The position numbers and the translations under genes were made by a program. A DNA stretch of 37,051 bases from Paludibacter sp. (GTDB taxonomy: Bacteria > Bacteroidota > Bacteroidia > Bacteroidales > Paludibacteraceae), in the NCBI GenBank assembly GCA_020049335.1, contig JAIFKX010000296.1:1-37051 (forward strand), written 5' to 3'. Positions 6,959 through 26,118 of this stretch are shown in pieces (the stretch's first letter is position 1; each line of letters starts with the position of its first letter). The notes below the pieces were generated by a model. It saw only the letters and a list, made by a program, of their open reading frames with translations, was not told the DNA's origin and searched no databases.

Positions 6959-9154
6959 ATGAAAACTACTAAGCAGATTGTTTTATTTATACTTTCAAGT
7001 GCTTTCTGTATTCTATCTGCCCAAAATCCAATTGCAACTTACTATGGCAATGGCAATTATCCTACTTGGACTGATAACTTGAAATGGGAAAATCGCATCA
7101 ATATGAAAACTTTCAGTTTTGCTGGAAATGGTTGTGCCGATTGTGCTTCGGAATTTTCGAAGTTCGAATTTGCTCGCGACCTACTTTACGCTCAAGGTGG
7201 CGGTGTACTTTATTATTCGGCAGGTACTTACGATTTTAGCGAAATTTCCAATGAAGTATCCGATTCCATTTCGGGACGAGGACTTATGCTGCGCTCCGGT
7301 GTGGTTATTTTGGGCGAAACACCCACTACCAATAATAATGCGCTGGCTGGAACTATGGCTTTGCCTACCAAATTTATTTTTAAACATAAAACTATAAAAG
7401 ACATATCAAGTATTGATAAACCGATTCCAACCAACTGGTCAATATTGGGCTGTATGGCTTCAGGTAGCGAAACGCTGAAAGATGTAAAGAACATTGGAAT
7501 TGCTTGGGTAGAAATGGACGGTGGCGCTATTTATTTTGGAGGTGAATATACTTGGGGCAATACTTGGGCAACATCCGGTGGGTGGTATAGCTCCAAAGCG
7601 GCCAAAGGAGTTTGGAAAAACCGTGTGGCTGATGGTACGCATCCTATCGACCCTTTCGCTGGTGCTGTGGGCAATTATGTCGGTGCAGGTTCGGGTCGAT
7701 TGGTTTTTGGCTGTGTAGTAAAAAATTCGGTGATAGGCAATCATAACCTCATTCAGTATGCCCGCGAAAAGTACGACACCATTAAAGTGAGTACTTATCC
7801 TTATAAATTTGGAGCTAGAGTGGGTGTTTATGGCTCCAATGTTTTTGTGAGCAATAATTATATGCCAAAACCCGATAAATGTTTTAAATATACCCAAACT
7901 ACTGCCATCAGCCAGCAGGACAAATGTAATCAGGCATTTGGTAACCACCGAACTACATTGATTTATGATTATGGTAAAAGTTTTGGTATTGATGTAAACA
8001 AAGGTTTTCTAAATCCATTTTCGAACACCATGATAGGTTATCTGTCAGAAAATGTGGTTGTTAGTAATAATTGGGTGTATAATCATGGGGCTAAGGGTTT
8101 CGAAATCTCAGGAAATTATTTTTTGGTACAAAATAATAAAAATGAACGACATGTGTTGATTGAAAATGATGACGTTTATGGGCTGGGCGTGAATTGGGAA
8201 CTGACTTTGGATGGTTTTTATGAAAGTCAGCCTGGTGGCAATGGCTGCCTCTCCGACAATCTTTCACGTGCTTTTGATATGGCCGGAAAAAATGGATGGA
8301 TTGATTATAATATCTATTCCAACACAGGTTCAAGTCCAGGCAACGATGGAGAAGGAATACTTTGGCAAGCACATGGCGGTATGAATAGCATTTTGTCATT
8401 TGCCATTACCAATAATACTGGTGGCGGCTACATGGCAGGTTACGATGTAAGTCAGAATGGTGCTTTGTGGGCTTGGAATAGCACATCTCAAATCGGAAAT
8501 AAGAAGGCTGGAGTTATGACTGATGTAGCTATTGTATCCAATGTGGGTACCATTAGTACTACTGGAACTGATTTTATTAGCACTTGTCCCGCTGGGACGC
8601 CAACTCCACCAGCAGATATAAATGTGGGTTTAGCGTCGGACAATGCATACGCCACTATTTCGTGGACTGATGCAGCTTCCAATGAGATTGGTTTTAGGGT
8701 TGAAAGAAAAATTGGCAACGGAGCTTGGCAAACTTTAGTTATTCGCCCGCGTAAAAGTATTGGAATAGCTGACAATGAGCAAGTTTGGCGCGATTATAAC
8801 CTTCCATTAAATGAATCTTTTGTTTACAGAGTTGTTGCTATAAATTGCGACAATAACGAAGTGGGTGCAAGCGCCGTTTCAGAACAACTACTAATTACAA
8901 AATCTATTACATCCACCAAGCAGATAAATGCAACTAATGTAATATCAATTTCTCCAAATCCAGTTGTTAATTCTTTCTTCATCAAAGGATTGGATAAAAA
9001 TTACACTATTGACATTTACAATACATTGGGGCGCAAAGTAAAAACAACAATTAGCGCCTGTGAGGTTGAAATAAGCAATCTGCCTAAGGGAGCATATTAC
9101 ATTACAATCAACAAAAATGTAATTTCAAAGTCATTCAAAATTATTAAACAGTAG
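6959..9154 (+). CDS. T9SS-secreted right-handed beta-helix (pectate-lyase-like) protein, copy 1
   Basis: 731 residues. I chose the ATG at 6959 because it begins a clean signal peptide (MKTTKQIVLFILSS...LSAQ); the frame extends upstream without a plausible start. Residues about 35-545 look like a parallel beta-helix of the pectate lyase superfamily: an entry block 'GGGVLYYSAGTYDF' followed by many Asn-rich rungs ('VVVSNNWVYNHG'). DGEGILWQ at 463-470 is shared with two paralogues at 14151 and 20510. A fibronectin-III-like domain lies at about 549-645 ('ATISWTDAASNEIGFRVER'). A T9SS sorting domain from about 662 begins ISPNPVVNSF. It is probably a surface or extracellular polysaccharide lyase or hydrolase acting on an acidic glycan; its exact family is not recognised. 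It is the first gene of a four-gene run, with 11 bases to the next gene. Confidence 0.85.
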   Translation: MKTTKQIVLFILSSAFCILSAQNPIATYYGNGNYPTWTDNLKWENRINMKTFSFAGNGCADCASEFSKFEFARDLLYAQGGGVLYYSAGTYDFSEISNEVSDSISGRGLMLRSGVVILGETPTTNNNALAGTMALPTKFIFKHKTIKDISSIDKPIPTNWSILGCMASGSETLKDVKNIGIAWVEMDGGAIYFGGEYTWGNTWATSGGWYSSKAAKGVWKNRVADGTHPIDPFAGAVGNYVGAGSGRLVFGCVVKNSVIGNHNLIQYAREKYDTIKVSTYPYKFGARVGVYGSNVFVSNNYMPKPDKCFKYTQTTAISQQDKCNQAFGNHRTTLIYDYGKSFGIDVNKGFLNPFSNTMIGYLSENVVVSNNWVYNHGAKGFEISGNYFLVQNNKNERHVLIENDDVYGLGVNWELTLDGFYESQPGGNGCLSDNLSRAFDMAGKNGWIDYNIYSNTGSSPGNDGEGILWQAHGGMNSILSFAITNNTGGGYMAGYDVSQNGALWAWNSTSQIGNKKAGVMTDVAIVSNVGTISTTGTDFISTCPAGTPTPPADINVGLASDNAYATISWTDAASNEIGFRVERKIGNGAWQTLVIRPRKSIGIADNEQVWRDYNLPLNESFVYRVVAINCDNNEVGASAVSEQLLITKSITSTKQINATNVISISPNPVVNSFFIKGLDKNYTIDIYNTLGRKVKTTISACEVEISNLPKGAYYITINKNVISKSFKIIKQ

Positions 9155-9165
9155 GTTTTATCTCA

Positions 9166-11649
9166 ATGAAAATAAACCGTATTTTGTTAACCAGCTTTGT
9201 TTTGGCAATATATTTATTATCAGTAAACTCACTGTTAGCTGCCATACATCCTCGTTTGTTTTTTGAAACAACCGATTTGCCTACATTGCGCAATCGTGTA
9301 TCCGATCCGGTGGGTGCGGAAATGCTCAATTTACTTAAAACGCAATACGAAACTGAATGCCTGTCGCTGGACACAACTACCACCGGAAATAAATCGCGCC
9401 TTGCTGCCATTGCGGGTTTTCTGTATTTGATGACTGAAAATGAAGACTATGCCATAAAATCGTATGAATACACCTATAAAACCATTATCGATAAAGAAGA
9501 AGTATGGGCGGCTACTTCACTCAAGGGACTAACTTCTTATTGGTCGGCTTATTGTGTTTCGTTTGCTTACGACTGGTGTTACAATTCGCCTAACTGGTCG
9601 AATGCCAATAAACTTTTTGTTTCTACAAAGTTGAAAGTAATGGCAGATATGATTACTACCAATGGAGGCGCCGAGCAAAATACCAATGCAGCCAGCAATT
9701 GGCAAGGCATTCGAGGTGCATCGGCTCTACTTGCTTATCTCACTACCGATGATGCTTATTCCGCAACCAATTACAACACAATGAAAGCCAAGTTGACCAA
9801 ATTTGTGATTCAAAACTACGGCGATTCGGTGCAAAGTAGTGGCTGGAATATCGAAGGGCTTGGTTATCAGTATTATCCAGTAGGAAACTTTATTGGTCCA
9901 GTAGGCATAGCTATGGAGCGCGTGAACCGTGAAGATGGATTGAAAAAATATGCTTCTTTTGTTAATAGTTATTGGACAATCTATTCCTCGCTTTCAATAG
10001 GAATGGATTTGTTGGGTTTTGGTGGTATTCACCCCGATTTTGGCGACGACAATCCACATGTAACGGGTGAAGGCGTTTTTGGGCAATCGTTTTATTATTT
10101 GCCACCAGCCATGCAGCCGGCAGCAAAGTTTTGGTACGATAAAGCAGTAGGAACGGGTCGGGCTACCCAGAAATACGATGGCTACCGACTTGGTCTTATC
10201 TGGTCGTATCTCTATTATCCGTTCGATATGGTAGCCGAAAATCCCGCCGATGCCGATAGTTGGAAAACCTTAATGCAAGACAATTCGGGTGGAAATGGAT
10301 ATTATACCTATCGCAATCAGTTTAAAGATGGTTCTGACGAAATAGCTCAGCTATATGTTAAACTCCGTGGCGATAAAGGTCATGCGGGTCCTGATGCGCT
10401 TTCGTTCCGAATTCTGGGTACGAATGCTGCTTGGGCTATTGGTGGCGGACGATATGGACTGAAAGTGGCAGCTCCTGTAAACCAAGATGTTTATTGGCAC
10501 TTGATGAACACGGTTTATCCTATTGAACCATTGGTAAACAAAATTGGATCTACCGGCTGTACCACTTGTAAAACCAATGGTAATTCAGGAACAATAGTTG
10601 GTGTGCCTTATCAAAACGAAGATGGCTCGGGACATATTATTTCCGAAATGGCTACCAATAATGTGTGGACAACGGGACACAAACGTTGGTTTGTTGCCGA
10701 TTACGATTCGCTGAATACAGGCTGCCGAGCTTTTTATCTTATTGCCGATTCTACTGTGAATGGTAAATATTGGCACATGGTTACGGCTGTTGAAAATACA
10801 ATTACTACCGATGCCAATTCGTTTACCATTACAGCGCCCAATGGCAGCAGCATGAAAGGAACAATTTTTATGGCAGGCACAACTTCTATCAAAACCGGAA
10901 CATCAGTCAGAGGTTCAACTTTTGGCTCGGCTACCGAATCGAAATACATAACCATTCAGGGAACAACAAATATGTTTTTAATTACACTTTCTGTAGTTGC
11001 AAGCAGTGGAATACATCCAGTGCCAACACTTACTGCTGCAGCCACCATAAGCCAATCAAAAATTAATGTGGAAACTAAATCGTATACGTTTAAAAACGAT
11101 AATGTACTGTATAATAATAGCTTGGCTTTTTTTCGCCCACAAGCACGTTGGACAATTGACAAAGTTTCAGGAAAAGCTCCATTATCAGTCACTTTCAATG
11201 CCAGTAATTCATTTTCTCCTTCGAATAAAAACATAGATGTGGAAATAAATTCCGGCAATAACGAATCGATAGTAAGTAATAACCTAACCCACATTTACAC
11301 CGAGCCGGGCACTTACTTGGCTTCAGTAAAAGTAAAAGATTCCGAAAATAAAGTGGCTACACGTTTTGCCTACATTTTGGTGTGTGGAACTACTTCTACT
11401 CAAATAAATGATATTCAGCAAGAAATTTCATTCAAATGGAGCTATAACCAAGGTATTTTACAAATCGGATTTAATGAAAATTCATTGGCGAACCTAATCA
11501 GCTGCTACGATATTTCTGGCCAGTTGTTAGTTGTTAAAAAAGTGGGCTGTTTGAATGAAAGTATTGATTTAAGCAGTTATCCAACAGGTATAAAAATTAT
11601 CAAAGTGTCGGGTAAAAATGGCTGTAAAACATTTAAAATTGTAAACTAA
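9166..11649 (+). CDS. Heparinase II/III-like (alpha/alpha)-toroid polysaccharide lyase candidate with PKD and T9SS tail
   Basis: 827 residues with a signal peptide at 1-26 (ending NSLLAA). The mature start 'IHPRLFFETTDLPTLRNRV' is the opening typical of heparinase/alginate-lyase-like toroid proteins. Helical repeats run to about 350, including 'NAASNWQGIRGASALLAYL' and 'GWNIEGLGYQYYP' (about 225). 'GHAGPDALSFRILG' near 405 resembles the start of the beta-sandwich half of heparinase II/III enzymes. A PKD-like domain lies at about 659-740 ('GKAPLSVTFNASNSFSP', 'YTEPGTYLASVKVKD'). A degenerate T9SS sorting domain fills about 752-827, with 'CYDISGQLL' and 'LSSYPTGIKIIKVSG'. It would cleave uronic-acid glycans outside the cell; substrate unknown. 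It sits 11 bases after the beta-helix gene and 8 before the next, so it is surely co-transcribed. Confidence 0.75.
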   Translation: MKINRILLTSFVLAIYLLSVNSLLAAIHPRLFFETTDLPTLRNRVSDPVGAEMLNLLKTQYETECLSLDTTTTGNKSRLAAIAGFLYLMTENEDYAIKSYEYTYKTIIDKEEVWAATSLKGLTSYWSAYCVSFAYDWCYNSPNWSNANKLFVSTKLKVMADMITTNGGAEQNTNAASNWQGIRGASALLAYLTTDDAYSATNYNTMKAKLTKFVIQNYGDSVQSSGWNIEGLGYQYYPVGNFIGPVGIAMERVNREDGLKKYASFVNSYWTIYSSLSIGMDLLGFGGIHPDFGDDNPHVTGEGVFGQSFYYLPPAMQPAAKFWYDKAVGTGRATQKYDGYRLGLIWSYLYYPFDMVAENPADADSWKTLMQDNSGGNGYYTYRNQFKDGSDEIAQLYVKLRGDKGHAGPDALSFRILGTNAAWAIGGGRYGLKVAAPVNQDVYWHLMNTVYPIEPLVNKIGSTGCTTCKTNGNSGTIVGVPYQNEDGSGHIISEMATNNVWTTGHKRWFVADYDSLNTGCRAFYLIADSTVNGKYWHMVTAVENTITTDANSFTITAPNGSSMKGTIFMAGTTSIKTGTSVRGSTFGSATESKYITIQGTTNMFLITLSVVASSGIHPVPTLTAAATISQSKINVETKSYTFKNDNVLYNNSLAFFRPQARWTIDKVSGKAPLSVTFNASNSFSPSNKNIDVEINSGNNESIVSNNLTHIYTEPGTYLASVKVKDSENKVATRFAYILVCGTTSTQINDIQQEISFKWSYNQGILQIGFNENSLANLISCYDISGQLLVVKKVGCLNESIDLSSYPTGIKIIKVSGKNGCKTFKIVN

Positions 11650-11657
11650 TAATTCTA

Positions 11658-14123
11658 ATGAAAAAGTTCATTCTCTCAATATCGATTATTTTTAGTGCTA
11701 TGCAGTATTCTGTTGGTCAGATTGATAGCATTGTAAACGCACTTCCCCGCCCACAAGCCTCATGGGAAGTAGGTTTCAATAAGCGTATTTCCGAGATGTG
11801 GAGTATACGTATCCCATCCTACGTGCCTAATCCTAATGGAAGTATGGATGCTGGTAAATACGAATGGCCAAAATTACTATCCAAGATGGCATGGCCTGCA
11901 ACAAATTATAATTCCACCACCATGGCTGCTTTGATAGCAACAGGACGTGAAATGGTTAATGGGGGTTACGTAGGTAGTTTTTATTCTCCTTTTAGCTGTG
12001 CTGGATACGCCATGTATTATTTTCATTGGAAGGATAGTATTGCCAAATATGATCCAAGTCAAATTACTCTTATCCATGAAAATGTTAATTCTATGTGGTA
12101 TCAGCTCATGAAAGCCGATCATGTGTATGACCCTTGTTGTGGCTATAATCTTAGTGGAGGCAAAGAGTTTAATTCTGAAAACTTTCATTGGATGATGCGC
12201 TGTACAGGATACCTATTTGCACACGAATTGCATAACAAAACTATTAATAGTAAAGTAAACAATTTGAACAGTTTTAATATGAGCAATCAAGGGGTCTTGC
12301 TTCACACACGTTTAGCCTCGCCACTTACAAAAACCATTTATCCTACAAGTGTAAATGTAATAGATTATTTCGACGGCTTTGTGAAAAATCTTACCCGTGC
12401 ACTTTACAATGCTGGTCGTGTGGAATGGAATTCAATCAACTATACTGGACATACGCTCAATCCATTGTTGACATTATACGAAGGTGCAGATAAATGTAAT
12501 GACCCCAATGGTGCTGCTAATAAAAAGCGGGCACAGGCTTGTATAGATTGGATGATGGTAGAAATAGCGCTGCATTACCAAGATGGCTTCCAAGCGGCGG
12601 CGGATGCCCGTGCCAAAAGCGGCAGTTTTAAGCCTTACAAGGGATCCATTTATCAATATGCCATTCCCTATTTTGCCGATGATGCCCATTACCCTACTTT
12701 CCCCACTACAAAATGGCTAACCCAGAATCCTGACATGATGGAAATTGGTTCGCTTTTGAGCAGCAGTTATCGCCCCCCGCAAATAGTAATAGACATTGCT
12801 CAACGAAATTTTCCACTTCCAGTAGAAATACAAAGTGCGAAACCATTTTATCACATCGACCACGGTACTTATTTCAACAATGATGGGTCAGTAAAAGGTG
12901 AATGCCCTTACAATGCATGGAACGGAACGGGTAAAGGCCGACGATTTGAATTCGAAACTATTTGGTTAGACAAAAATCTAACGATGGCAAGTGCTGCAGT
13001 AGGTCGTCCAGATGGAAATCAAGGAACTTTTTCGGAGCAATGCATGTGGCGCTTGGCAGTGAAAGGTCAGAAAAATGGTGCGCGTATGCTAAGTGGCAAT
13101 GCAGGCATCATGCCGTCCACTGCCGCCAGATTACCAGAGCACGAAATTGGTCAATTTAGAAATGTGATGATGCAAATGGTAAAGCATGAATATGATTTTA
13201 AAAATGTAATTTGGTTCGCTATCCCCGATTCATTGAATGAATTGCCACTTGAAGGCGAAGGAGATTTTTGGGATGTACAACAATATAAATGGGTGAACAA
13301 AGATTTATACCTTAATGTTGGCAGTGGCGTTTTTATTGCAATCAAAGCTTTTCCTACTCCACTTACAGTAACTGTAAATACGGGTTACTCTGAAAGTTCA
13401 GACCACTCTTCATTGGCTTATGGTTGGGATGAAAACGTGTTAGGAACAGTGGTGACAGAGGTTGCAACTACAAACGATTATGCCGATTTTGCCAGTTTTG
13501 TAAACGCATTACAGTCAAAATCAATAACTTCAATCAATGCCTCTACCTATCAATATACAAGTGGAAGTGGTAATACAATCAAGATGGAATATGTCCCTAC
13601 TGGATCTTTCACGATGACCCCATATACTAATGACACTCCTTATACTAATCCTTTTTCTCCCGCTGGAAGTTATCCCAAGGTATGGGGAAATGGTACTTAT
13701 ATAGATTACACTACCTGGGATAGTTACAAAACCACTTATGGTTATGATTTAGTAAATCAAGGCTGGGGAAGTGGTGTGATGACCCTAAAAACTGCCAATG
13801 CATCGTCGCGCACAACCATTGACCCAGTTACAGCAGAGGTTAAGTTTGAAGTGAATAAAGTTGGTTCAAATTCGACTTCGATACGTAATCTGACAGTGCA
13901 AAAATCCACCATTCATATTTATCCCAATCCAGTAAAAAACGAATTGTATATTCAATCTGATCATCCGATTCGGGCATTGACAATTTACAACGCTATGGGG
14001 AAATTAATCAGCAGCCACGAAAATACAACCGTAATTTCTACGGCAAATTTAAAACAAGGCATGTATTTTTTAAAAATTGATAGTAACTATGCATACGAAG
14101 TTAAAAAATTTTTCAAGGATTAA
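11658..14123 (+). CDS. T9SS-secreted (alpha/alpha)-toroid-like protein of unrecognised family
   Basis: 821 residues with a signal peptide at 1-20 (MKKFILSISIIFSAMQYSVG). Residues about 30-500 are Trp/Tyr/His-rich and helical, in the style of alginate-lyase or heparinase toroids, but I do not recognise a named family. Features shared with the partial gene at 35869 are 'GKYxW', 'EN.....R...YL' (E174, N175, R181; H177 nearby), 'EWNSxxY' (about 256), 'LYEGA' (about 275), 'E.ALHY..G' (about 303) and 'SSYRPP' (about 369). About 510-720 is probably beta-rich, and 751-821 is a T9SS sorting domain ('IHIYPNPVKNELYIQ', 'LKQGMYFLKID'). It is most likely a surface polysaccharide lyase candidate, because it is flanked by two other secreted polysaccharide-active genes. 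Spacing is 8 bases from the previous gene and 27 to the next. Confidence 0.7.
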   Translation: MKKFILSISIIFSAMQYSVGQIDSIVNALPRPQASWEVGFNKRISEMWSIRIPSYVPNPNGSMDAGKYEWPKLLSKMAWPATNYNSTTMAALIATGREMVNGGYVGSFYSPFSCAGYAMYYFHWKDSIAKYDPSQITLIHENVNSMWYQLMKADHVYDPCCGYNLSGGKEFNSENFHWMMRCTGYLFAHELHNKTINSKVNNLNSFNMSNQGVLLHTRLASPLTKTIYPTSVNVIDYFDGFVKNLTRALYNAGRVEWNSINYTGHTLNPLLTLYEGADKCNDPNGAANKKRAQACIDWMMVEIALHYQDGFQAAADARAKSGSFKPYKGSIYQYAIPYFADDAHYPTFPTTKWLTQNPDMMEIGSLLSSSYRPPQIVIDIAQRNFPLPVEIQSAKPFYHIDHGTYFNNDGSVKGECPYNAWNGTGKGRRFEFETIWLDKNLTMASAAVGRPDGNQGTFSEQCMWRLAVKGQKNGARMLSGNAGIMPSTAARLPEHEIGQFRNVMMQMVKHEYDFKNVIWFAIPDSLNELPLEGEGDFWDVQQYKWVNKDLYLNVGSGVFIAIKAFPTPLTVTVNTGYSESSDHSSLAYGWDENVLGTVVTEVATTNDYADFASFVNALQSKSITSINASTYQYTSGSGNTIKMEYVPTGSFTMTPYTNDTPYTNPFSPAGSYPKVWGNGTYIDYTTWDSYKTTYGYDLVNQGWGSGVMTLKTANASSRTTIDPVTAEVKFEVNKVGSNSTSIRNLTVQKSTIHIYPNPVKNELYIQSDHPIRALTIYNAMGKLISSHENTTVISTANLKQGMYFLKIDSNYAYEVKKFFKD

Positions 14124-14150
14124 AATTTCAACAGTCAATACACAAGCACA

Positions 14151-16652
14151 ATGAAAAGGCACATTTTACTACTTTCAACAATTCTTTTGTCAATAGTTGC
14201 CTATGCGCAACCTCTCGACAATCCGTATAAAACAAAATATGGAACTGCACCAATATGGACTAACGATATTCGTTGGGACAAAACGGTCAATATTCTTGAT
14301 TTTGAAGTCTCCGGTCAGTCGTTTTGGGATGCTGCACTTACAGCTGCCATGACAGCAGTAAGCACTTCGGGCGGAGGAGTGGTCTATTTTCCTGCGGGAA
14401 CCTATGCTTTTGCCGACAATGTAACTTTGCCCACAGCAGTAGTGTTAAGAGGAGAAATGCCTGCGTTTAACAATGCCAAAGTCGATTCGTTTGCTCCACC
14501 GGCAAGGCTTGTTTTCCCTAAATACGAACCTACTTTTGTGGGCGACGGAACTCCAAATTCAACTGCTTTTAAATCCATTTCAGGAAGTGGAATTAAAAAT
14601 GCAGGATTGGTACATTTAGATATTAATCGTGGTCGGGTTTATTTGGGTGGTTCGTCACGCAATATATTGGTTTTTGGGATCCGCCTCAACAATATAGCGC
14701 AGCCACATACTGATATACCCTCTAACTTCAGTTATATGGCTGGATGGCAGCGTTTTTCGTACCGCCATTGTAGCACAATTACTATTTATGTATCCGAAAA
14801 TGGTGCCATTGTTAATAGTCGATTCCACGATTTGATGAATAATTTGTACCATCCTATTACTGACGACAGCTACCCACAACCGCAATACGTGGTAACTGGT
14901 CGTTACAAAACGTCTCGTATTACTCCCACTGGTGTACTCGCTTCAGAAGTAATTGGGGGTGTTACGGTTGACACTACACACATTGAACATGGCGAGCGAG
15001 CTAAATTCGATTATTTGGCACATTATGGTATCTCAATTAGCGGTGCTTTTATTGACCCAGCCACGCTTCCAAAACGTATTAATCAGCAAATAGAAGTCGT
15101 TGATAATTGGATTTATAACACCATGCGTGTAGCCATTTTTGCACAAGGTATTGGCGTGAAAATTAATGGAAATATTACGCGTGATTTACAAGACAAACGT
15201 ATTTTTATCGACCCAACTGGAGTGAAATTGGTCTCAAACAACTCTGCCACTTATGAGAACCGAAGCTTAAATTTTGCTGGCGACAATATTACAATAGAAA
15301 GAAATGACCTCAGGGTATACAGACACAAAATTCTTTACACCAACTATTCCAGCGTAGATGGAGAAGGTATTCTGATGCAGACGCAGGATAAGTGGGGAGC
15401 ATGGATGGATGGAATTAATGTTTTGAATAATAAGCTGAATTCGTATATTGGTTTTTATGATTTGAATTTTGACCAGCGGAATCTCAATATTTCCGGAAAT
15501 AATTTAATGAATTTAGGCAATATATTTATTTTCAAAAAAAATATTGCTTTCAGGTTAGATAATGTATTTGTTGAGAATAATGATAGCGTAAATAGTATTC
15601 TGGTTGGCAATAAAGCAACTGCTGATTCTTATCAGACAATTGGAAACAATCTTTTTATTCGCAACAATAAAGGAATTGGGTCATTAAAATACCCTTGCCA
15701 GTCGGTGGTTTCGGGAAATACAGGATTTACTAATACGGTGAACACTTGCCCCGATGATTTTAATGTTTTGCTGGCTGTTACACCCAGTTTTGGTCAACAG
15801 GCGGTTTCCAAAAATGCCGAAATTTCTGTTACCTATCCACATCTCTTAAGTGCTATTGATTTATCTGGAATAACTCTTGTAGGCGAAACAGCAGGAAATT
15901 TAGCTATTACAGCCACAATTCAAGGACAGAAACTAGTCATTACACATAGTGGAAATATACTACCAAACCAAAAATACACCGTTACTATTCCTGCTGGTTC
16001 TGTGAAAAGTGCCTCCAATTCGGTTGCAAATACTGAGCTTAGTTGGTGGTATATTACACAAGCTCGTCCTTATTATCAAACCATTACTCCAGGCAAAGCA
16101 GCAACTGGAATAAGCAATTTCACACCCATACAAATTCAGTGGGCTAATCCTATAACCATTAGCGATGCATCTAAAATTAAAATACTTGATGCAAGTAATG
16201 AACTTGTAACAGGGCTAACGCTTCTTTTGGATGCCAACACTAATATTCTTACGATTTTACATGATCCATTCGTTCCAAACTCAATTTACAAAGTAATAAT
16301 TGATGCCGATGCTGTAGCCAACGCTGATTTATTTGGAAATGAGCTAACAGAATGGTCTTTTACTACCGGCTCAGCTGCAATTACATCGGTCGAAAAAATT
16401 GGCACTGATAATTTTAAGCTTGCAATTTTCCCCAATCCGGCAAGTAGTTATATTTCAATACAATTGCCCAATAAATCAAGTGTATCGGCACTTAAAGTAT
16501 TTAATTCTACAGGCGCATTTATTCACTCTGTGGATGTATTACCCTCTCAATCAATCATCAATATGAATGTAAGTAATTATCAGAAAGGGATGTATTTTAT
16601 AGTTCCTTTTGGTAACTCCAATCAACAAGCAGCTAAGTTTTTTAAAAAATAA
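14151..16652 (+). CDS. T9SS-secreted right-handed beta-helix (pectate-lyase-like) protein, copy 2
   Basis: 833 residues with a signal peptide at 1-19 (ending VAYAQ). It opens 'NPYKTKYG...IWTNDIRW', nearly the same as the gene at 20510 and related to the one at 6959. The beta-helix covers about 22-538, with 'GGGVVYFPAGTYAF', 'VVLRGEMP', 'FAPPARLVFP' and DGEGILMQ at 403-410. Two Big_5-like Ig domains follow at about 541-640 and 642-735 ('ILPNQKYTVTIPAGSV', 'PNSIYKVIIDADAVAN'). The T9SS sorting domain begins near 760 ('LAIFPNPASSYISIQL'). It is likely a surface enzyme on the same glycan as copies 1 and 3. It is the last gene of the tight four-gene run; 144 bases separate it from the next start. 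Confidence 0.85.
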   Translation: MKRHILLLSTILLSIVAYAQPLDNPYKTKYGTAPIWTNDIRWDKTVNILDFEVSGQSFWDAALTAAMTAVSTSGGGVVYFPAGTYAFADNVTLPTAVVLRGEMPAFNNAKVDSFAPPARLVFPKYEPTFVGDGTPNSTAFKSISGSGIKNAGLVHLDINRGRVYLGGSSRNILVFGIRLNNIAQPHTDIPSNFSYMAGWQRFSYRHCSTITIYVSENGAIVNSRFHDLMNNLYHPITDDSYPQPQYVVTGRYKTSRITPTGVLASEVIGGVTVDTTHIEHGERAKFDYLAHYGISISGAFIDPATLPKRINQQIEVVDNWIYNTMRVAIFAQGIGVKINGNITRDLQDKRIFIDPTGVKLVSNNSATYENRSLNFAGDNITIERNDLRVYRHKILYTNYSSVDGEGILMQTQDKWGAWMDGINVLNNKLNSYIGFYDLNFDQRNLNISGNNLMNLGNIFIFKKNIAFRLDNVFVENNDSVNSILVGNKATADSYQTIGNNLFIRNNKGIGSLKYPCQSVVSGNTGFTNTVNTCPDDFNVLLAVTPSFGQQAVSKNAEISVTYPHLLSAIDLSGITLVGETAGNLAITATIQGQKLVITHSGNILPNQKYTVTIPAGSVKSASNSVANTELSWWYITQARPYYQTITPGKAATGISNFTPIQIQWANPITISDASKIKILDASNELVTGLTLLLDANTNILTILHDPFVPNSIYKVIIDADAVANADLFGNELTEWSFTTGSAAITSVEKIGTDNFKLAIFPNPASSYISIQLPNKSSVSALKVFNSTGAFIHSVDVLPSQSIINMNVSNYQKGMYFIVPFGNSNQQAAKFFKK

Positions 16653-16796
16653 TATATAGCCTATATACATCTCGTAGAATTTCTTGGGAAGTATGGATTT
16701 ATATCCATTATTTGCAAGCCATACAGAAGCTTTGTGAAAGTTAAGAACAAGAAAAATAATGGATTAAAATTTTTAATGATGGATAGACAGATTTCT

Positions 16797-18709
16797 ATGA
16801 AGCGTTTTCTAATTATTTTCACCATTCTCACTCATTTCGGAACTTTGTCATTTGCACAAATTGATACTGTGTTTTTAACAGCTATGGATTTGTCAAAAGT
16901 GCAACAGGGATGGAGCACGGTTCATATCAATACCAATTTGCTCGACGAGCCATTGTCTATAAACAAGCAGCGTTTTGAGAACGGTATTTGCACTCATGCA
17001 TACTCCGAAATAGAGATTCAATTACACCGGAATGCTAATCGTTTTACGTCACTTGTAGGTATTGATGACCATGTAGCTAAAGGGAAGCATTCCAGTATCT
17101 ACTTTATGGTGTTGGGTGATAAGGATACCCTTTTTTGCAGTAAAAAAATGCATGCCAATGAACCTCCAGTAAGTATAGACATATCAATAGTGGGGTATAA
17201 GAAATTAACCCTAATAACACATGATGCCTACGATGGATCAAATCAGGATCATGGTGACTGGGTGAATGCCATTATCACTTATTCTGGAAATCAAAAACCC
17301 GATGTGTTTTATCATACACCTGAGCCATTTTATTTACAAACCCCTTCATTGTCAGAAGTTCCTCAGATAAATGGAGCCATGGTGTCGGCTGCTCGTGCAG
17401 GTTCTCCTTATCTTTTTAGAATCCCAATTACAGGAATTCAACCTATAAAAGTAACAGTTAGTAGGTTGCCATACGGATTGCATTTTGACTCAAAAACGAA
17501 TATTATCAGTGGTACAGTTGCTAAAATTGGAACTTACAAAGTTTCTATCAAAGCTGCCAACTCCAAGGGCAAAACATCTGCCAATCATCGTATTGTTATT
17601 GGCAATAAATTAGCTCTTTCACCACCCATGGGATGGAATAGTTGGAATGCATGGGGAATGCGGATATCCGAAGAAAAAGTACGGCAGACCATTGACGCAT
17701 TCGAAAAGTTCGGACTTGCCAATCATGGTTGGACTTATATTAATATTGACGACGGCTGGCAAGCTGAAACACGCAATGCAGATAGTACTTTGAAATGGAA
17801 TTCTAAATTCACTGACATTAAACTTTTGGCAGATTATGCTCATGCTAAAGGTTTAAAACTAGGGATTTATTCCTCGCCAGGCGAGTATACATGTGGTAAA
17901 GAAATCGGAAGTTTGAATTACGAAAAAGTTGATTCCAAAACATGGGCTAACTGGGGAGTAGATTATTTGAAATATGATTGGTGTTCGTACGAAAAAGTTA
18001 TTTCGGGGAATTCTCGTGCTGAATACATGAAGCCTTATTTGAAGATGAGTAATGAGCTGAAATCGTTAAACAGAGATGTTGTTTTCGGTATTTGTCAATA
18101 TGGAATGGATAATGTGTGGGAATGGGGTCCGCAAGCTGGTGGAAGCACTTGGCGCACTACCAATGATATTATTGACACCTGGTTCAGTATGAAAACAATA
18201 GGATTTGAACGCCACAACATCACTCATCCTTATGCTGGGCCAGGTGCGTGGAACGATCCTGATATGCTCTTGGCTGGGGAGCAAACCTACACCCTTCTCG
18301 TTTAACTTGTAACGAGCAATATACTCATTTTACACAATGGGCTATGCTTTCGGCACCCTTGATGTTGGGTTGTGATTTGGCACAATTAGATAGTTTCACA
18401 CTTAACCTGATTACCAATGACGAAGTGATTGCTATCAATCAGGATGTATTGGGAAAACAAGCGCAATTAATGTATACGGAAGGTGACGTACAAGTTTGGA
18501 AAAAAGAACTGAGCGGAAAAAGAATAGCTTTAGCCATCTATAACCTCGGACGTGATGATACGAGTTTTGAAATATGTTTCTCCAAAGCAGGGCTTAAATC
18601 AAAACAATTTCTACGCGATGTGTGGACACAAACCGATGTAGGATATAGAAAAAACAGCTATACATTTGATATTCCAAGGCATGGCTGTAAATTGTTTGTA
18701 GCAAAATAA
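16797..18709 (+). pseudogene. GH27 alpha-galactosidase with NPCBM domain, broken by a frame change near 18270
   Basis: The ATG at 16797 starts a good signal peptide (MKRFLIIFTILTHFGTLSFA); the same frame is open from a GTG at 16734, which is less likely. Domains in order are an NPCBM-like domain (about 25-165, 'ICTHAYSEIEIQL', 'HGDWVNAIITY'), a He_PIG-like domain (about 190-270) and a GH27 barrel from about 275 ('LSPPMGWNSWNAWG'). The nucleophile D394 is in KYDWC and the acid/base D457 is in WRTTNDIID. After 'GAWNDPDMLLAG' the frame runs into TAA at 18303-18305. The family sequence resumes in another frame ('GWGANLHPSRLTCNEQYTHF') and continues to a normal end at 18709. One base, or more probably 13, is missing. 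As read, the product lacks the end of the barrel and the C-terminal beta domain and should be inactive. There is no T9SS tail, so the intact form would be periplasmic. Confidence 0.85.
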
Positions 18710-18830
18710 ATTTAAAATAACGATATACACTTAAAAATAAAATCCTTTCTCGTTTGCAGGTATTCCTAGGGTTTATTCGTCATAGAATACTTTCGAAAGG
18801 AATAAAAACAATCAAAATAATATTAGAACA

Positions 18831-20375
18831 ATGAAAAGAAATCAATTAAGTCTGCTTTTTTGTGTGTTATCCGTATTTAGTTTAGTTGCGTCCGATTTCA
18901 CCATTACCAATTTTGGTGCAAAGCCAGATGGCAAAACCCTTAACACGGTGGCTATACAAAAAGCTATTGACGCGGCAGCAAAAGTAGGTGGCACTGTCAT
19001 AGTTCCTGCGGGAACTTTTGTGTCGGGAACTATTTTTTTAAAAAGCAACATTGTTTTTCATTTATCTCCCAAAGCAAGACTTGTAGGGTCGCCTTACATA
19101 AAGGATTATAAAACAATGACATGGGGGCATCACGAAGACCGGACTCCATGGCACTTTATAGTAGCCAAAAATCAGGAAAATATTGTAATAAATGGCTCAG
19201 GGACTATAGATGGAAATGACATTGCGTACCGTGAGCCTAATCGCAAAAACGAATACTCTTTTTATCACGAAATTGAATTTCGACCAAGTCCACTTATTGA
19301 AATACAGGAATGTAAAAATGTAATTGTAGAAAATATATCCATAGTCAATTCGCCAGGTTGGACACTGCATTTATTTGATTGTGACGTGGCTAAAGTGGAC
19401 AAGGTATCTATCACCAACAGTCTTTTTGGCCCTAATAGCGATGGGATTGATATTACAGGAAGTCATGATGTGTCGGTAAGTAATTGCTATATTTCTGTAG
19501 GCGACGATTGCATTGCTCTTAAAACCACCGAGGATTCAAGAACTTGCGAACGCATTGCTGTTACCAATTGTATTTTTGAAACCAACTGTGTGGCATTCAG
19601 GGTGGGCTTCGAGAGCCGAAAAGATTTTAGAGATATTACATTGAGTAACTGCGTGGTGAAGAATGGCTCTCGAGCTATTGATCTTCGCACAGTGGAAGGT
19701 GGTAATATCGAAAATGTAATTATTAGTGGTATGACAGGGCAAGTAAATTCTGGTTGGGCTTTCGATAGAGTAATTGAAATTCAGGCTAATAGAATTAATA
19801 ACACCTATGATATTGCTATCAAGGAACATCCTAATTATCGTAAAGATAAACCTGTAGCAAAAGCAGGATTCATTCGTAATGTGCTCATAGAAAACATGAT
19901 GATCAGAACTTCGGGACGCATTTTGCTGGGAGCACTACCCGAAACATCTATCACAAATGTGACATTTAGAGATATTACCTTGGATTATTTTTTACTAGAA
20001 GACCCTTATGAAACAGGATTGAAAGCTGCCAAATCACCGGGATTTGCAGTGGGAATGCCCTTTGTGCGGTCGCAACGCGCTGCTATAGTAGCCGAAGGAG
20101 TCACCGGCTTTACGATTTCTAATTTCAAAGCGATATGGCCAACCTATCCCGTATCGGAATCTTGTTTTCTGTTGACAAGCCCCAATAGACTTTTTAATCC
20201 TTCATTTTTCAAAGGAAATGAACGTGAAATAAAATCTGGTGAATACAAAGTTGAATTCAAACCATTCGCTTTTAAAAATGTAAAAGGTGCAGTGATAGAA
20301 AACTCAACAAAATTCAGCTCCGAAGGAAGTGCCGATTTTATGGTGAAAGAGGCTTCGGAAGTGACGATGAAATAA
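18831..20375 (+). CDS. GH28 family glycoside hydrolase (polygalacturonase-like), atypical active site
   Basis: 514 residues with a signal peptide at 1-21 (ending LVAS). The mature start 'FTITNFGAKPDGKTLNT..IQKAID' is standard for GH28. The beta-helix carries the two family acid motifs: NSDGID at 202-207 (family NTD) and GDDC at 224-227. Where polygalacturonases have the 'GHG' histidine, this protein reads NCVAFRVGFES at about 252-262, without histidine, and 'RAIDLR' stands in for the RIK region. This suggests a GH28 subgroup with another specificity (a rhamnogalacturonan- or exo-type enzyme is possible) or weak activity. No T9SS tail and no lipobox are present, so it probably works in the periplasm on imported oligosaccharides. 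Gaps of 121 bases before and 134 after allow its own promoter. Confidence 0.85.
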   Translation: MKRNQLSLLFCVLSVFSLVASDFTITNFGAKPDGKTLNTVAIQKAIDAAAKVGGTVIVPAGTFVSGTIFLKSNIVFHLSPKARLVGSPYIKDYKTMTWGHHEDRTPWHFIVAKNQENIVINGSGTIDGNDIAYREPNRKNEYSFYHEIEFRPSPLIEIQECKNVIVENISIVNSPGWTLHLFDCDVAKVDKVSITNSLFGPNSDGIDITGSHDVSVSNCYISVGDDCIALKTTEDSRTCERIAVTNCIFETNCVAFRVGFESRKDFRDITLSNCVVKNGSRAIDLRTVEGGNIENVIISGMTGQVNSGWAFDRVIEIQANRINNTYDIAIKEHPNYRKDKPVAKAGFIRNVLIENMMIRTSGRILLGALPETSITNVTFRDITLDYFLLEDPYETGLKAAKSPGFAVGMPFVRSQRAAIVAEGVTGFTISNFKAIWPTYPVSESCFLLTSPNRLFNPSFFKGNEREIKSGEYKVEFKPFAFKNVKGAVIENSTKFSSEGSADFMVKEASEVTMK

Positions 20376-20482
20376 TTCAAGTAGTTACAATGAATTAGTT
20401 GCAAGCTAAAAGTCTTATTCACAGAAGGTTCAGATTTATAGTTAACGCAATAACCCATTCGATAAACTAAAAAAAATGATGT

Positions 20483-20490
20483 TAAATTTG
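20483..20490 (+). promoter_or_regulatory. Possible Bacteroidota -7 promoter element
   Basis: TAAATTTG matches the TAnnTTTG consensus and ends 19 bases before the ATG at 20510. A weak TTCG about 21 bases upstream (20458-20461) could serve as the -33 element. It is a candidate only. Confidence 0.25.
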
Positions 20491-20509
20491 TAAATAATTA
20501 CAGTTGGCA

Positions 20510-22831
20510 ATGAAAAACTTAATTTTACTCTGTTTTATTTTTCCACTTTTGGTTTTTTCACAACCAACTGACAATCCTTACACTACCAAGTATGGATCTA
20601 ATAACTCCCATTGGACCAATGCCATTCAATGGAGTAAGGTATATAATATTAATGTATATTCTGGTGCCAACTGGGATGCAAAATTGGCAAATGCACAAAC
20701 TGATGTGGTAGCAAAAGGAGGTGGAGTTATCTATTTCCCAGCAGGACAATATGATTTCAACAATGATATTATTCTGAAATCAAAAGTTGTATTGCGTGGC
20801 GAAACACCTACATTCACTACTGCTGTTGACAATCATTTTGCTCCACCTACTCGTTTTGTGTTTCCACAACATATTCCTATTTTTACAGGAAACGGAACCG
20901 ACCGCAGCTCTTCGTATCGCCGTATTAGAAGCCAGTTTACCGATTATGGTGCACGCACCACCATCCCCAAAGACACTGTTCAGAATACAGGACTGGTGTA
21001 TATTGATATCAACAGAGCCAATATCATCTTGCATCCGTCGTACGTAGATTACTTACCAACAGGATCTGGATCTACTAATTACATTCCATGTGAAATGCGA
21101 AATGTCATTGTTTTTGGCCTCAGAAATAACAATGTTATGTTTCCATTGCCTAGTTTTCCATATCTTACAGATACAAATCGAAATCAATGGCAAAGATGGC
21201 CTTGGCGCTATATGTCCAATGTGGATGCTTTAGCACAGGAAAATCTCGTTATTTGCAACAATCGGTTCAATGACAATACAAACAATCTCACTTATCCCAT
21301 CCCTGACGAAAGCTTTGATCAGCCAGGTTATGTTGTTTTCAATGAGACTGCTAGCGCCTATGAAACAATAAACGATGGCTCGAAAGCCAAATACGAATAT
21401 AACAATCATTATGGTATAGTAGTGAATAGATTCTATAACTTTTACACCATTGCTAACGGAAATTTTGCATCTGGTGATTTGATTATTGCTTCTGATTATG
21501 CTGCCGAATCAGGAAAAGGGAGATAACCTTCGTTGTTTAATAAAGGAGTACAGATAGAGGATAACTACATGTACAATACCCAGCAAGTAGCCTTTTTTGT
21601 AGCAGGACAAGGAATGGTCATTCGTAATAATGTATTGCGAAATAAATCCAACAAAGTGCAATGGGTGAGCAGGTCAGGATACAATAAAGTAACCTACGAT
21701 TCATATATGGAAAATAGAGGTATTGATTTCTCGGGATCTGATATAATTATAGAAAATAATGATGTTGAGGTATATAACACTCGTTTCGAAACTTCAAATT
21801 ATTGGTCGAATGACGGCGAAGGTATCATGGTACAGGAATGTTGCGGTGGTGCAAAACCTCTCAATTTAAAAATAAATAACAATAAACTCACTGGTGTCAA
21901 TGCCTATATTGGGTTGTATAAAACACAAGATATTTCCAAAGTAAATATCGAGGGTAACCAAATGACCAATCAGCAAATATATGTCAATGCCAATACTAAT
22001 AGTAATAGTTTCACCTGCAATGATATTCTTATACAAAACAATACAGGAGTAAAAGGGATTACACTTCGTGGCGATAAATATGGAGTAAATTGTGCCGTAA
22101 AAAACAATAGTGGGACAGGTAGTATAGATGCAAATTGCTTTGTAGAAGTGCTAAACAACAGTGGTTTTACTCTTAAAACTTGTACGCCAATAAAAGATTA
22201 TGCTACAGAACCAGATAGTATCTGTTATGGAACTTTTTGTTTCCCAAATACAAACAAGCTTGAAGCAGAATGTCTTATTGCCAATGGTTTGCCTGTTGTG
22301 AATTTTACCAGTGCACCTGAAATAGTGCTTTCCAACGAAAGTTCGGTAAGGCTAAATATGGAAAAAGTATCTGGCTTAGTAGATTCGATAGTGGTTTACA
22401 ACAACAACAAAGTTATATCTCGTAGCATAAATATTCCAGCATATATCGATGTGCCAATTTCTGATTATAATCAACATTATTTTAGGATACAAGCTTTTGG
22501 GTGTTCGCAGCTTTATCCTAAACACACTAATTCCAATTCTATTTTAGTATATAAAATACATAACTTCCTTTCAACTTCAATAATTGAAGTACCGGAAACT
22601 GATTTTGAACTCAAACCATTCCCTAATCCAGCTCAAAATCAAATTTTTATAAACGCTGAAGTGGGTTCCGATATTTCAATTTTTACGCTTTCTGGCAGGT
22701 TTATTCAATCGTTTAAATCTACATCATACCAACAGAGAATCGATATTTCTAATTATCAAACATCCATCTACGTCATCAATGTTTTATCACCTAAGGGATT
22801 ACTCAGTGTCGATAAATTTATTAAAATTTAA
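20510..22831 (+). pseudogene. T9SS-secreted beta-helix protein, copy 3, interrupted by an in-frame TAA
   Basis: The ATG at 20510 opens a signal peptide (MKNLILLCFIFPLLVFSQ). The protein then reads 'NPYTTKYG...HWTNAIQW', 'GGGVIYFPAGQYDF' and 'VVLRGETPTF', closely matching the gene at 14151. Codon 339 (21524-21526) is TAA. The same frame continues directly after it with 'PSLFNKGVQIEDNYMYNTQQ', which aligns with the intact paralogue ('QIEVVDNWIYNTMR'), through DGEGIMVQ (435-442 in read-through numbering) to a T9SS tail ('LKPFPNPAQNQIFIN') ending at 22831. No frame change is needed, so a single base substitution explains the break. The first part (338 residues) would be secreted but lacks half the helix and the sorting tail; the second part lacks a start and a signal. 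It is called a recent pseudogene, unless the base is a sequencing error. Confidence 0.85.
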
Positions 22832-22994: not shown

Positions 22995-25262
22995 ATGAAA
23001 AACACACTCAAAAAAAAGAAGTATTACCTTGCAATTCTATGTGTAGTTTTAGTTGCTTCATTGCCTGCTTATGGAGCTATGACAAAAAAAAGTAAAACGA
23101 AATCCATAGAGCAACGAGTCGATTCTGTACTTAGGTTAATGACACTCGAAGAGAAAATTGGTCAAATGACACAGCTTTCAAATCCAAATATACCTACTGG
23201 TCCTACTTATATATCCGTAGAGAAAGCAAGTAATGTGGCTCTGATAAGAGAAGGCAAGTTGGGAAGTATTCTGAATATTACTGGTGCTGACTTAACCCGT
23301 AGGATGCAAGAAGTAGCAGTGAACGAATCACGCATCAAAATTCCTCTGCTATTTGGTTTCGATGTAATTCATGGTTTCAAAACCGTATTCCCTATTCCAT
23401 TGGCATCTGCTTGCAGCTGGGATATGGCAGCCATAGCAAGTGCTGAACGGGTAGCTGCATTAGAATCCTCTGCTGCGGGCTTGCACTGGACATTTGCACC
23501 CATGGTGGATATTGCCCGCGACCCTCGCTGGGGAAGAATTGCTGAAGGAGCTGGTGAAGACCCTTTTCTAGGTTCGGCCATAGCAAAAGCCCGTGTACAG
23601 GGATTTCAAGGGAAAAATTTGAGGGATGATGCCTCTATTTTAGCTTGTGTGAAACACTTTGCAGCTTATGGTAACGCCGAAGCTGGCAGAGATTATAACA
23701 CTACTGACATGTCTGAACGTTTGCTGCGTGAGATTTATTTACCGCCTTACAAAGCCGCAATAGATGCTGGAGTAGCTACTGTGATGAGTAGTTTCAATGA
23801 ATTTAATGGGACACCTGCTTCAGGCAGTAAATTTTTGCTTACAGATATTCTTCGCAATGAATATGGGTTCAAAGGATTTGTGGTGTCGGACTGGAATTCT
23901 ATATCTGAAATCATTACCCATGGTGCAGCAAAAGACAAAAACGAAGCTACTATTTTTGCAATGAATGCCAACATTGATATGGATATGCAAAATAATTGCT
24001 ACCCGAAGAAATTAAAACAATTGGTAGAAGAAGGCAAAGTTACAGTTGAACAAGTTAATAAGGCAGTACGCCGTATTCTTCGTGCTAAGTTTGAATTGGG
24101 ATTGTTCGATAATCCGTATAAATATTGCGATAGCAAAAAAGAGAAATCCGTATTATTAAATAAGGAAAATCTGGCCAAAGCACTAGATGTGGCTAAACGC
24201 TCCATCGTCTTATTGAAAAATGACAATCTACTACCACTTAGTAAAACAGCGAAAGTGGCTATCATTGGCCCTTTAGCTGATGCCCCAAAAGAAATGAATG
24301 GCTGTTGGGCTTGGTATGGTGAGCAATCGCCAGTTACTTTTCTATCAGGAGTAAGGAATAAAATTGGTTCTTCTCATCTTATTTATGCCAAAGGCTGTAA
24401 TATTAATGACGCCACTACTGATAGCATCGCGTATGCAGTGTCAGTGGCTAAGGATGCTGATGTGGTAGTTCTTTGTGTAGGAGAGTCTGGCGACATGAGT
24501 GGAGAGTCGAATTCTCGTACTTCGTTGGATTTGCCTGGTGTACAGTCATTGTTGGTGAAGGAAATTCTGAAAACGGGTAAACCTGTTGTATTGGTGATGA
24601 CCAACGGACGACCAATTACACTAGGAAGTCTTAATGATTCAGTACCAGCCATACTCGAAACATGGCAGTTGGGTACTAGGGCAGGTGATGCACTGGCGGA
24701 AGTGCTTTTCGGAGATTATAATCCATCCGGAAAACTAACCACCACTTTCCCAATAACTATTGGACAGGTTCCTATTTATTACAATCATAAAAACACAGGA
24801 AGACCTAATATTGATGGCAAAAGACAAGGGTACAATTCAAGATATATAGATTGTGGAAATTTCCCCCAATACCCTTTTGGTTTCGGTCTGTCGTATACAA
24901 AGTTTGAGTATTCTGATTTTAAAATTGACAAAAGTTCAATGGCGAAAACTGATAAGGCTACGGTTTCAGTAGTGGTTAAGAACACAGGAAGTTACGATGG
25001 AGAGGAAATTGTACAGCTTTATATTCGCGATTTGGTTGCTTATGGTGTTTCTCGGCCTGTGAAAGAATTGAAAGGTTTTGATAAAATCACTTTAACAAAA
25101 GGGGAACAAAAAACTGTAAGGTTTCAAATTACACCTGAAATGTTAGCGTACTATGATTTGAACCTGAAAAAAATAGTTGAACCAGGTGATTTTTCAATTA
25201 TGGTAGGATGTTCATCGGCTGATAAAGATTTATTGAAGTTGAATTTAACAGTCATTGAATAA
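22995..25262 (+). CDS. GH3 family beta-glycosidase (BglX-like)
   Basis: 755 residues, full length for BglX-type GH3 enzymes, with a signal peptide at about 1-28 (ending LPAYGA). The N-terminal barrel (about 40-360) carries 'PLLFGFDVIHGFKTVFPIPL', 'DPRWGRIAEGAGEDPFLG', 'KHFAAYG' and the nucleophile D299 in VVSDWNS. The second domain (about 400-610) holds 'GESGDMSGE', the region of the acid/base glutamate, and 'FGDYNPSGKLTTTFP'. A fibronectin-III-like domain closes the protein (about 665-735, 'YDGEEIVQLYIRD'). It removes terminal beta-linked sugars such as glucose or xylose from oligosaccharides; the exact sugar cannot be read from sequence. It lacks a T9SS tail and lipobox, so it is likely periplasmic. 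It is intact, unlike the gene just upstream. Confidence 0.93.
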   Translation: MKNTLKKKKYYLAILCVVLVASLPAYGAMTKKSKTKSIEQRVDSVLRLMTLEEKIGQMTQLSNPNIPTGPTYISVEKASNVALIREGKLGSILNITGADLTRRMQEVAVNESRIKIPLLFGFDVIHGFKTVFPIPLASACSWDMAAIASAERVAALESSAAGLHWTFAPMVDIARDPRWGRIAEGAGEDPFLGSAIAKARVQGFQGKNLRDDASILACVKHFAAYGNAEAGRDYNTTDMSERLLREIYLPPYKAAIDAGVATVMSSFNEFNGTPASGSKFLLTDILRNEYGFKGFVVSDWNSISEIITHGAAKDKNEATIFAMNANIDMDMQNNCYPKKLKQLVEEGKVTVEQVNKAVRRILRAKFELGLFDNPYKYCDSKKEKSVLLNKENLAKALDVAKRSIVLLKNDNLLPLSKTAKVAIIGPLADAPKEMNGCWAWYGEQSPVTFLSGVRNKIGSSHLIYAKGCNINDATTDSIAYAVSVAKDADVVVLCVGESGDMSGESNSRTSLDLPGVQSLLVKEILKTGKPVVLVMTNGRPITLGSLNDSVPAILETWQLGTRAGDALAEVLFGDYNPSGKLTTTFPITIGQVPIYYNHKNTGRPNIDGKRQGYNSRYIDCGNFPQYPFGFGLSYTKFEYSDFKIDKSSMAKTDKATVSVVVKNTGSYDGEEIVQLYIRDLVAYGVSRPVKELKGFDKITLTKGEQKTVRFQITPEMLAYYDLNLKKIVEPGDFSIMVGCSSADKDLLKLNLTVIE

Positions 25263-26035: not shown

Positions 26036-26118
26036 AAAACACACTCTTTTTTTGGTGGTATATACTAAGTCAGGTGTCTATTACTAAGAGATAGATAAAT
26101 TATTATCCTCAAATATTT

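Follow-up and report, generated by a model that had tools for sequence, protein, structure and literature searches.

The sheath and slime of cyanobacteria represent a large carbon pool, and to our knowledge the enzymes that degrade them are poorly known. Among right-handed beta-helix enzymes, the polygalacturonases of glycoside hydrolase (GH) family 28 carry their catalytic motifs NTDGxD, GDD, GHG and RIK in series on successive rungs. Polysaccharide lyases (PLs) of family PL6 use a catalytic Lys and Arg (accessible text of PMC12028748), and about 10% unidentified GH and PL were reported from a mat community (accessible text of PMC12555021). Here, we describe a putative enzyme family marked by the motif DGEGIxxQ, found in a polysaccharide utilization locus (PUL) of Paludibacter sp. 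The window, meaning the whole stretch of DNA analysed, comprises all 37,051 nucleotides of contig C180 (JAIFKX010000296.1) from a 4.3 Mb draft genome (332 contigs, 83.3% complete), and three of its genes, starting at positions 6959, 14151 and 20510, encode family members 1, 2 and 3 (Table 1). With moderate confidence, we read them as belonging to an undescribed family of secreted right-handed beta-helix depolymerases, lyases more probably than hydrolases, that would act on an acidic exopolysaccharide (EPS) of cyanobacterial type.

A conserved Arg and DGEG motif in a family without a name

A preliminary description of the window had reported DGEGIxxQ in all three proteins; each carries it at the residues named there, and a six-frame search of the window found only these three DGEGI strings. 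The N-terminal features it listed as shared are present but looser than claimed, the WTNxIxW block reading WTDNLKW, WTNDIRW and WTNAIQW in members 1 to 3 and the GGGV entry of member 1 reading GGGVLYYSAGTYDF. Type IX secretion system (T9SS) tails, in the form of type A C-terminal sorting domains, were borne out by PF18962 matches above the Pfam cutoff on members 1 and 2 and on the 3' piece of member 3, as were the two Big_5 stretches of member 2 in the Pfam scan. The fibronectin type III (FnIII) stretch of member 1 proved weak, with a phmmer match to FN3con (E 0.014) but no Pfam fn3 match at E ≤ 1. The third gene had been taken as a single uninterrupted frame, but it contains an in-frame TAA, at 21524-21526, that the description had not mentioned; this stop splits the gene into 20510-21523 and 21527-22831, the frame being otherwise open to 22831. 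In member 3, ECCGG directly follows the motif, as in the cyanobacteria-dominated A3 consensus QECCGGT; member 2 lacks this stretch. A fourth paralogue, reading NDGEGILAQ, is encoded elsewhere in the same genome (contig C51, locus L017, 1505-3955), and a profile search of that genome, with 18 candidates scored, returned the four members and a cap-only match on contig C273. Next to the C51 gene, which has an orthologue in locus L022 at 17397, lie a related pair of T9SS-like proteins (cluster 39) and a gene named by eye as GH3-like.

The earlier impression that the set belongs to no recognized family held up, as Pfam, NCBIfam, PHROGs and PDB sequences gave no named family over the active region. 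On the window members, Pfam found tails, Big_5 domains and, weakly, the PF12708 cap. The gathering score of PF12708, a profile to which the preliminary description had pointed, is 27 bits; member 2 exceeds it (28.9), but member 3 falls below (24.1) and member 1 has no match. Among 66 A3 members, Pfam returned at E ≤ 0.001 PF12708 (43), Beta_helix (4), NosD (1) and nothing else, and NCBIfam gave only sub-cutoff cap matches and tails for the family. PHROGs searches with five proteins found no match at E ≤ 0.01; PDB sequence searches gave nothing below E 0.01 with single proteins and, profiles included, no convincing match over the active region. Resemblance to the pectate-lyase superfamily is confined to the N-terminal cap. 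Naming was checked in these four resources, and the family may already carry a CAZy number. Literature titles yielded no description of the motif, of polymerase-lyase fusions or of cyanobacterial EPS lyases, and a word search of the main text of a survey of cyanobacterial EPS genes (PMC4594306) found none of the terms pectate lyase, beta-helix and fusion. To probe a phage origin, we scanned viral contigs; among the 25 loci obtained, no match extends past query residue 182.

Distribution, conservation and lineages

A profile of the four paralogues, run against 395 Bacteroidota genomes with up to three candidates scored per genome, was positive in the Paludibacter genome only (1/395); member 2 does not appear there because only three candidates were scored per genome. 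Scanning contigs for relatives with a DGEGI pattern and a GGGVxYxxA pattern, we kept 80 of 134 confirmed stretches, corresponding to 79 loci from Cyanobacteriota (38), Bacteroidota (22), Verrucomicrobiota (9), Planctomycetota (7), Calditrichota (1), Sumerlaeota (1) and one unassigned source. Seven of 244 cyanobacterial genomes drawn, with up to six first-look candidates per genome, carry the family, with one match each. All five loci fetched from this sample have DGEGILIQ and the Arg rung, in a search whose profile itself held the motif.

Profile matches were present in 91 open reading frames (ORFs), and leaving out those spanning 380 profile positions or fewer resulted in an alignment of 81 domains (37 cyanobacterial, 21 from other Bacteroidota, 9 from Verrucomicrobiota, 7 from Planctomycetota, 2 from Calditrichota, 1 unassigned and the 4 Paludibacter members). 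In the numbering of member 2, used from here on for positions of the family, R371 is conserved in 79/80, D403 in 78/79 and E405 in 70/79 domains, the family showing Arg and then DGEG on successive rungs. Asn residues are similarly steady (N319 80/81, N341 81/81, N385 79/80, N427 76/77, N450 75/76, N477 72/75). Conservation of the motif goes beyond chance, because 67 domains carry the GGGVxYxxA pattern and could be retrieved without DGEGI; of these, 55 read DGEG, 6 DGGG, and 6 have other residues or none there. The motif had been called invariant, which is too strong, since a cyanobacterial clade reads DGGG and the motif also varies in a few other sequences. Two family domains occur in tandem within one protein at L055:9905-13255 and L094:9710-14515, the second domain of the former reading DGDG. 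Loci L095 and L096, from metagenome-assembled genomes labelled Paludibacter and Saccharicrinis, carry nearly identical family genes (815 amino acids each) and have three further neighbour clusters in common, which may reflect transfer or misbinning.

The family tree, whose program flags long branches, splits into subgroups A and B with 100/100 support. Members 2 and 3 fall into A, member 1 and the C51 gene into different clades of B. Member 1 clusters with genes of L053, L091 and L022, from three other Bacteroidota (identities of 82, 77 and 66%), the C51 gene with a gene of L022, and member 2 with genes of L053 and L022; member 3 forms a long, unplaced branch. Given these deep, separate lineages and the orthologues elsewhere, we rejected the suggestion that the set diversified in place: judged from their sequences, the window paralogues represent old paralogy.

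Predicted structure of the motif region

AlphaFold2 (AF2) models of the domains reached a mean predicted local distance difference test (pLDDT) score of 84.4 for member 1 and 87.6 for member 2, and strand starts were taken from DSSP. Strands begin at R437 (437-449) and E465 in the model of member 1, and at R371 (371-378) and E405 (405-409) in that of member 2. In both models, the Glu therefore begins a predicted strand one rung after the near-invariant Arg, as might be seen in an active-site candidate, and each of the Arg and Glu strands leads to a stretch ending in a near-invariant Asn. Parallel beta-sheet 1 (PB1) followed by PB2, with an Asn ladder, is the usual order in beta-helices. From the strand starts and the Asn stretches, we assigned the motif to the corner between turn T3 and PB1 of the groove-side sheet, where its Asp and Glu would point into the groove.

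Foldseek returned generic beta-helix matches only, with template modelling (TM) scores of 0.16-0.48, including AlgE4/AlgE6 epimerases, the PL6 lyases 5z9t and 6a40, RbmB lyase, HK620 tailspike, GH28, GH87 and GH110. In the viral Foldseek library, most matches were phage proteins of the tailspike or pectate-lyase-like kind (TM 0.15-0.42).

Fusions to a polymerase region in cyanobacteria

Six cyanobacterial loci (L049, L050, L052, L056, L058 and L063) encode an N-terminal Wzy_C (O-antigen ligase) region and a family domain in one frame, and L061 has the two in adjacent frames. All seven form one clade (support 100/98). Its earliest branch, L049, retains DGEG, and the other six members read DGGG, with Gln410 changed to His, residue 374 changed to Glu, and R371 and D403 unchanged. 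The six DGGG sequences count as one event, because all belong to one clade. In these alignments, the joint change of Glu, Gln410 and residue 374 would fit a shared site, and the clade constitutes a natural variant series for the motif Glu.

Gene neighbourhood

The window order of a B member, a PL35-like gene, a gene of a second unnamed family (cl2) and an A member is kept in Paludibacter jiangxiensis (L053), where a GH88-like gene follows (Pfam 28.9 bits against a cutoff of 26.6). Caldithrix (L055) carries a GH88-like relative that stays below the cutoff, the tandem family protein, another gene, a PL35-like gene and cl2; a Cytophagales locus (L062) has a PL35-like gene, cl2, another gene and a family gene. 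A profile of five PL35-like sequences matched the PL35 entry 9o3q in the PDB (E 2.6e-7, positions 21-251). N178, Y234, Y237 and H406 are invariant in all five and are candidate triad positions, PL35 using Asn/Tyr/His (accessible text of PMC12088678).

The linked cl2 family likewise lacks a Pfam or NCBIfam match over its main domain. No catalytic-domain match was found in Pfam, NCBIfam or PDB sequences, and naming via distant relatives (L115-L121) gave no Pfam match at E ≤ 1 and NCBIfam matches only below cutoff. It occurs in 11 of the 79 family loci (10/41 non-cyanobacterial, 1/38 cyanobacterial) and is joined to a family domain in one open frame at L065, L090, L099 and L135, the last fetched later. 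In the 31 carrier genomes that hold 36 of the 79 loci, with up to 35 candidates scored per genome, cl2 was present at E ≤ 1e-40 in 21. A first background search of the 395 Bacteroidota (two candidates per genome) gave 49 'hits', most of them tails because the profile included the T9SS tail, and was therefore repeated tail-free (A9) with up to three candidates. In the repeat, the Paludibacter genome reached 1e-269, nine others had weaker relatives (best E 1e-26 to 3e-12) and 385 had none; at E ≤ 1e-40, both background searches found the Paludibacter genome alone. The cl2 profile derives partly from family neighbours, 8 of the 31 carrier genomes having supplied sequences. Among eight Bacteroidota carriers outside the profile, six have cl2 at E ≤ 1e-40 (one with internal stops) against 0/394 in the background (Fisher p about 5e-12), a value to be taken as a guide rather than a test because the samples were drawn unalike and more candidates were scored in carriers. 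A third cl2 copy of the Paludibacter genome lies on contig C295.

Table 1. Features of the window and an example of a cyanobacterial fusion
Feature	Position	Strand	Basis
Motif DGEGILWQ, member 1 residues 463-470, candidate active site	8345..8368	+	
Motif DGEGILMQ, member 2 residues 403-410, candidate active site	15357..15380	+	
Motif DGEGIMVQ, member 3 residues 435-442, downstream of the stop	21812..21835	+	
Preceding rung of member 1, near-invariant Arg R437 in RAFDMAG	8267..8287	+	
Preceding rung of member 2, near-invariant Arg R371 in RSLNFAG	15261..15281	+	
Family member 1, subgroup B: beta-helix domain, weak FnIII-like stretch, T9SS tail	6959..9154	+	
PL35/heparinase-II-like polysaccharide lyase, PKD domain, T9SS tail	9166..11649	+	Profile of five sequences against the PDB
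Second unnamed family cl2, T9SS tail; in several phyla beside or fused to the beta-helix family	11658..14123	+	Pfam, NCBIfam, PDB and locus comparisons
Family member 2, subgroup A: beta-helix domain, two Big_5, T9SS tail	14151..16652	+	
GH27-type alpha-galactosidase with NPCBM, broken into two frames (split near 18300)	16734..18709	+	
GH28-type enzyme outside the DGEG family	18831..20375	+	PF00295, 79 bits against 22.9
Family member 3, subgroup A: beta-helix domain, T9SS tail, interrupted by in-frame TAA	20510..22831	+	
GH3 beta-glucosidase, BglX-like	22995..25262	+	NF011678 over cutoff
Extracytoplasmic function (ECF) sigma, FecR-like, SusC-like and SusD-like PUL genes	25508..32364	+	ORFs and translations, named by eye
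Second cl2 gene, truncated at the end of the contig	35857..37050	+	
Wzy_C-beta-helix fusion, filamentous cyanobacteria	L050:8540-11518		

Further along the PUL, the SusC-type gene starts at 27205 and the SusD-type gene at 30757, both named by eye from the translations. The GH27-type gene is the second broken gene in the PUL, beside the interrupted member 3. At the PUL edge (32552-35287) lies a gene for a large T9SS protein with BNR/Asp-box repeats, with a relative in L053 at 14063-16705, and the minus strand encodes at 2-6508 a giant protein with immunoglobulin-like domains, cut by the contig start.

Function and alternative readings

In the depolymerase reading, the active site would lie on the groove-side PB1 sheet, with the Arg of one rung beside the D-x-E of the next. 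The chemistry would be beta-elimination on a uronic-acid-containing chain, the acidic pair acting as metal or substrate ligands and the near-invariant Arg as base or neutralizer; inverting hydrolysis by carboxylates would be the main alternative chemistry. The substrate would be an acidic bacterial exopolysaccharide like that of filamentous cyanobacteria: in view of its presence in these organisms and the polymerase fusions, the family probably acts on cyanobacterial-type slime polymers. Window members would be secreted by way of their T9SS tails, and the beta-helix enzyme would open the chain for the PL35-like lyase, cl2 and the GH28, GH27 and GH3 enzymes of the PUL. The cycling of acidic EPS in cyanobacterial mats is ascribed to Bacteroidetes, Planctomycetes and Verrucomicrobia (accessible text of PMC12555021); Bacteroidota, Planctomycetota and Verrucomicrobiota account for 38 of the 41 non-cyanobacterial loci, a match that is consistent with the substrate without proving it.

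Several observations weigh against this reading. The family is rare in both genome samples (1/395 Bacteroidota, 7/244 cyanobacteria), the two subgroups have no conserved Lys in common and, unlike in many lyases, no His or Tyr stands beside the motif. Profile comparison with PL6 failed (probabilities of 3.9 and 0.6, nothing over the motif), and the GH28 profile matched only the cap with A3 and the N-terminal part with A4, leaving the motif unreached. Among the genes scanned, the window PUL contains no GH88-like gene. Cyanobacterial family genes mostly stand alone, with cl2 in a single one of their 38 loci, and the substrate therefore rests on distribution and fusion; in the comparison of cyanobacterial neighbours, the largest cluster spans nine loci. 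Moreover, the top PDB Foldseek match of the member 2 model is PfbA, a surface adhesin, and with TM scores this low the fold neighbours say little about chemistry.

A possible, though distinctly less probable, account is that of inverting hydrolases of the GH28 or tailspike type, in which D403 and E405, perhaps with residue 374, would supply the acid and the base for cleaving a non-uronic linkage in that polymer. By hand alignment, E405 would occupy the strand position of a catalytic Asp of GH28, Foldseek matches include tailspikes such as HK620, and the GH27, GH28 and GH3 enzymes encoded close by are hydrolases. However, residue 374 is Asn in member 2 and is neither Asp nor Glu in 10 of 81 rows (N 3, Q 4, T 1, R 1, L 1), the GH28 profile matches stop short of the motif, and the near-invariant Arg and the lyase partners fit elimination better. 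We consider it unlikely that the proteins are polysaccharide modifiers of the C5-epimerase type, or binding scaffolds, that would tailor or guide a Wzy-type product in cyanobacteria. The polymerase fusion, with Glu lost in six of the seven members of that clade, would suit such a role, as would the adhesin as top fold match of one model and the mannuronan C5-epimerases, which are the best PDB profile matches and rank high in Foldseek; yet the significant epimerase similarity lies in the N-terminal cap, later segments being weak, and in Bacteroidota the family genes keep company with lyase and hydrolase genes. DGEGI could also be a structural turn, its Asp and Glu capping the strand and stabilizing the loop ahead of it, with the active site elsewhere in the groove; beta-helices often have Gly-rich corners in front of a strand. 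The DGGG clade, which has lost the Glu but retains the remainder of the domain, agrees with such a turn, but E405 is kept in 70/79 domains, and the clade changes E405, Q410 and residue 374 together while R371 and D403 stay, which looks more like the loss of a site than that of a turn. We regard a purely structural role as improbable; it overlaps the other readings, and the probabilities do not sum to one.

Building on the depolymerase reading, we tentatively propose, with more doubt than belief, that the beta-helix family and cl2, both undescribed, are the two enzymes of one module dedicated to a single filamentous-cyanobacterial exopolymer. Cyanobacteria would use the beta-helix enzyme on their own polymer and would have fused it to the polymerase, where loss of the Glu might have converted a depolymerase into a domain that holds the chain; in Bacteroidota, Verrucomicrobiota, Planctomycetota and Calditrichota, the module would serve to feed on the polymer. 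A family common to producers, in polymerase-fused form, and to presumed degrader phyla would provide a specific, testable tool.

Comparison with known systems

The Vibrio polysaccharide lyase RbmB (9ozl, 9ozd), a beta-helix lyase of a bacterial matrix polysaccharide, is among the fold matches, but at TM 0.18-0.39 and with no sequence match in the PDB searches. With the PL6 alginate lyases and chondroitinase B (PF14592), the family has in common the beta-helix and an acidic pair followed at equal spacing by a polar residue. Most sampled PL6 sequences read NGExEIISxK, and two have variants of NGExExxSxK; the PL6 Lys is replaced by Gln in DGEGIxxQ. PF14592 matches were absent from the 66 A3 members at E ≤ 0.001, from the window genes at E ≤ 1 and from the Paludibacter genome. 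GH28 polygalacturonases resemble the family in cap, fold class and, by hand alignment, an acidic residue at the strand start, but PF00295 gave no match at E ≤ 1 for members 1 and 2 and both pieces of member 3, nor at E ≤ 0.001 in the 66 A3 members, and profile alignment does not go beyond the cap or the N-terminal part. We rejected both GH28 and PL6 as families for these proteins on these grounds: no PF00295 or PF14592 match, Lys replaced by Gln, and profile comparisons that miss the motif.

AlgE-type mannuronan C5-epimerases (2pyg, 5lw3) are similar in cap sequence (E down to 3.2e-11) and rank high among the fold matches; beyond the cap, however, the alignment offers only weak second segments, and the family genes sit in a degradative PUL. 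In that alignment, the motif is not known to fall on any AlgE catalytic residue. Matches to the PF12708 superfamily cover mostly the cap (residues 46-103 of member 2), with no catalytic block in common; what unites the two is the N-terminal cap with its GGGVxYFPAG entry and the right-handed beta-helix. On this comparison, the DGEGIxxQ proteins would constitute an undescribed family that has a known fold and performs a task of known type.

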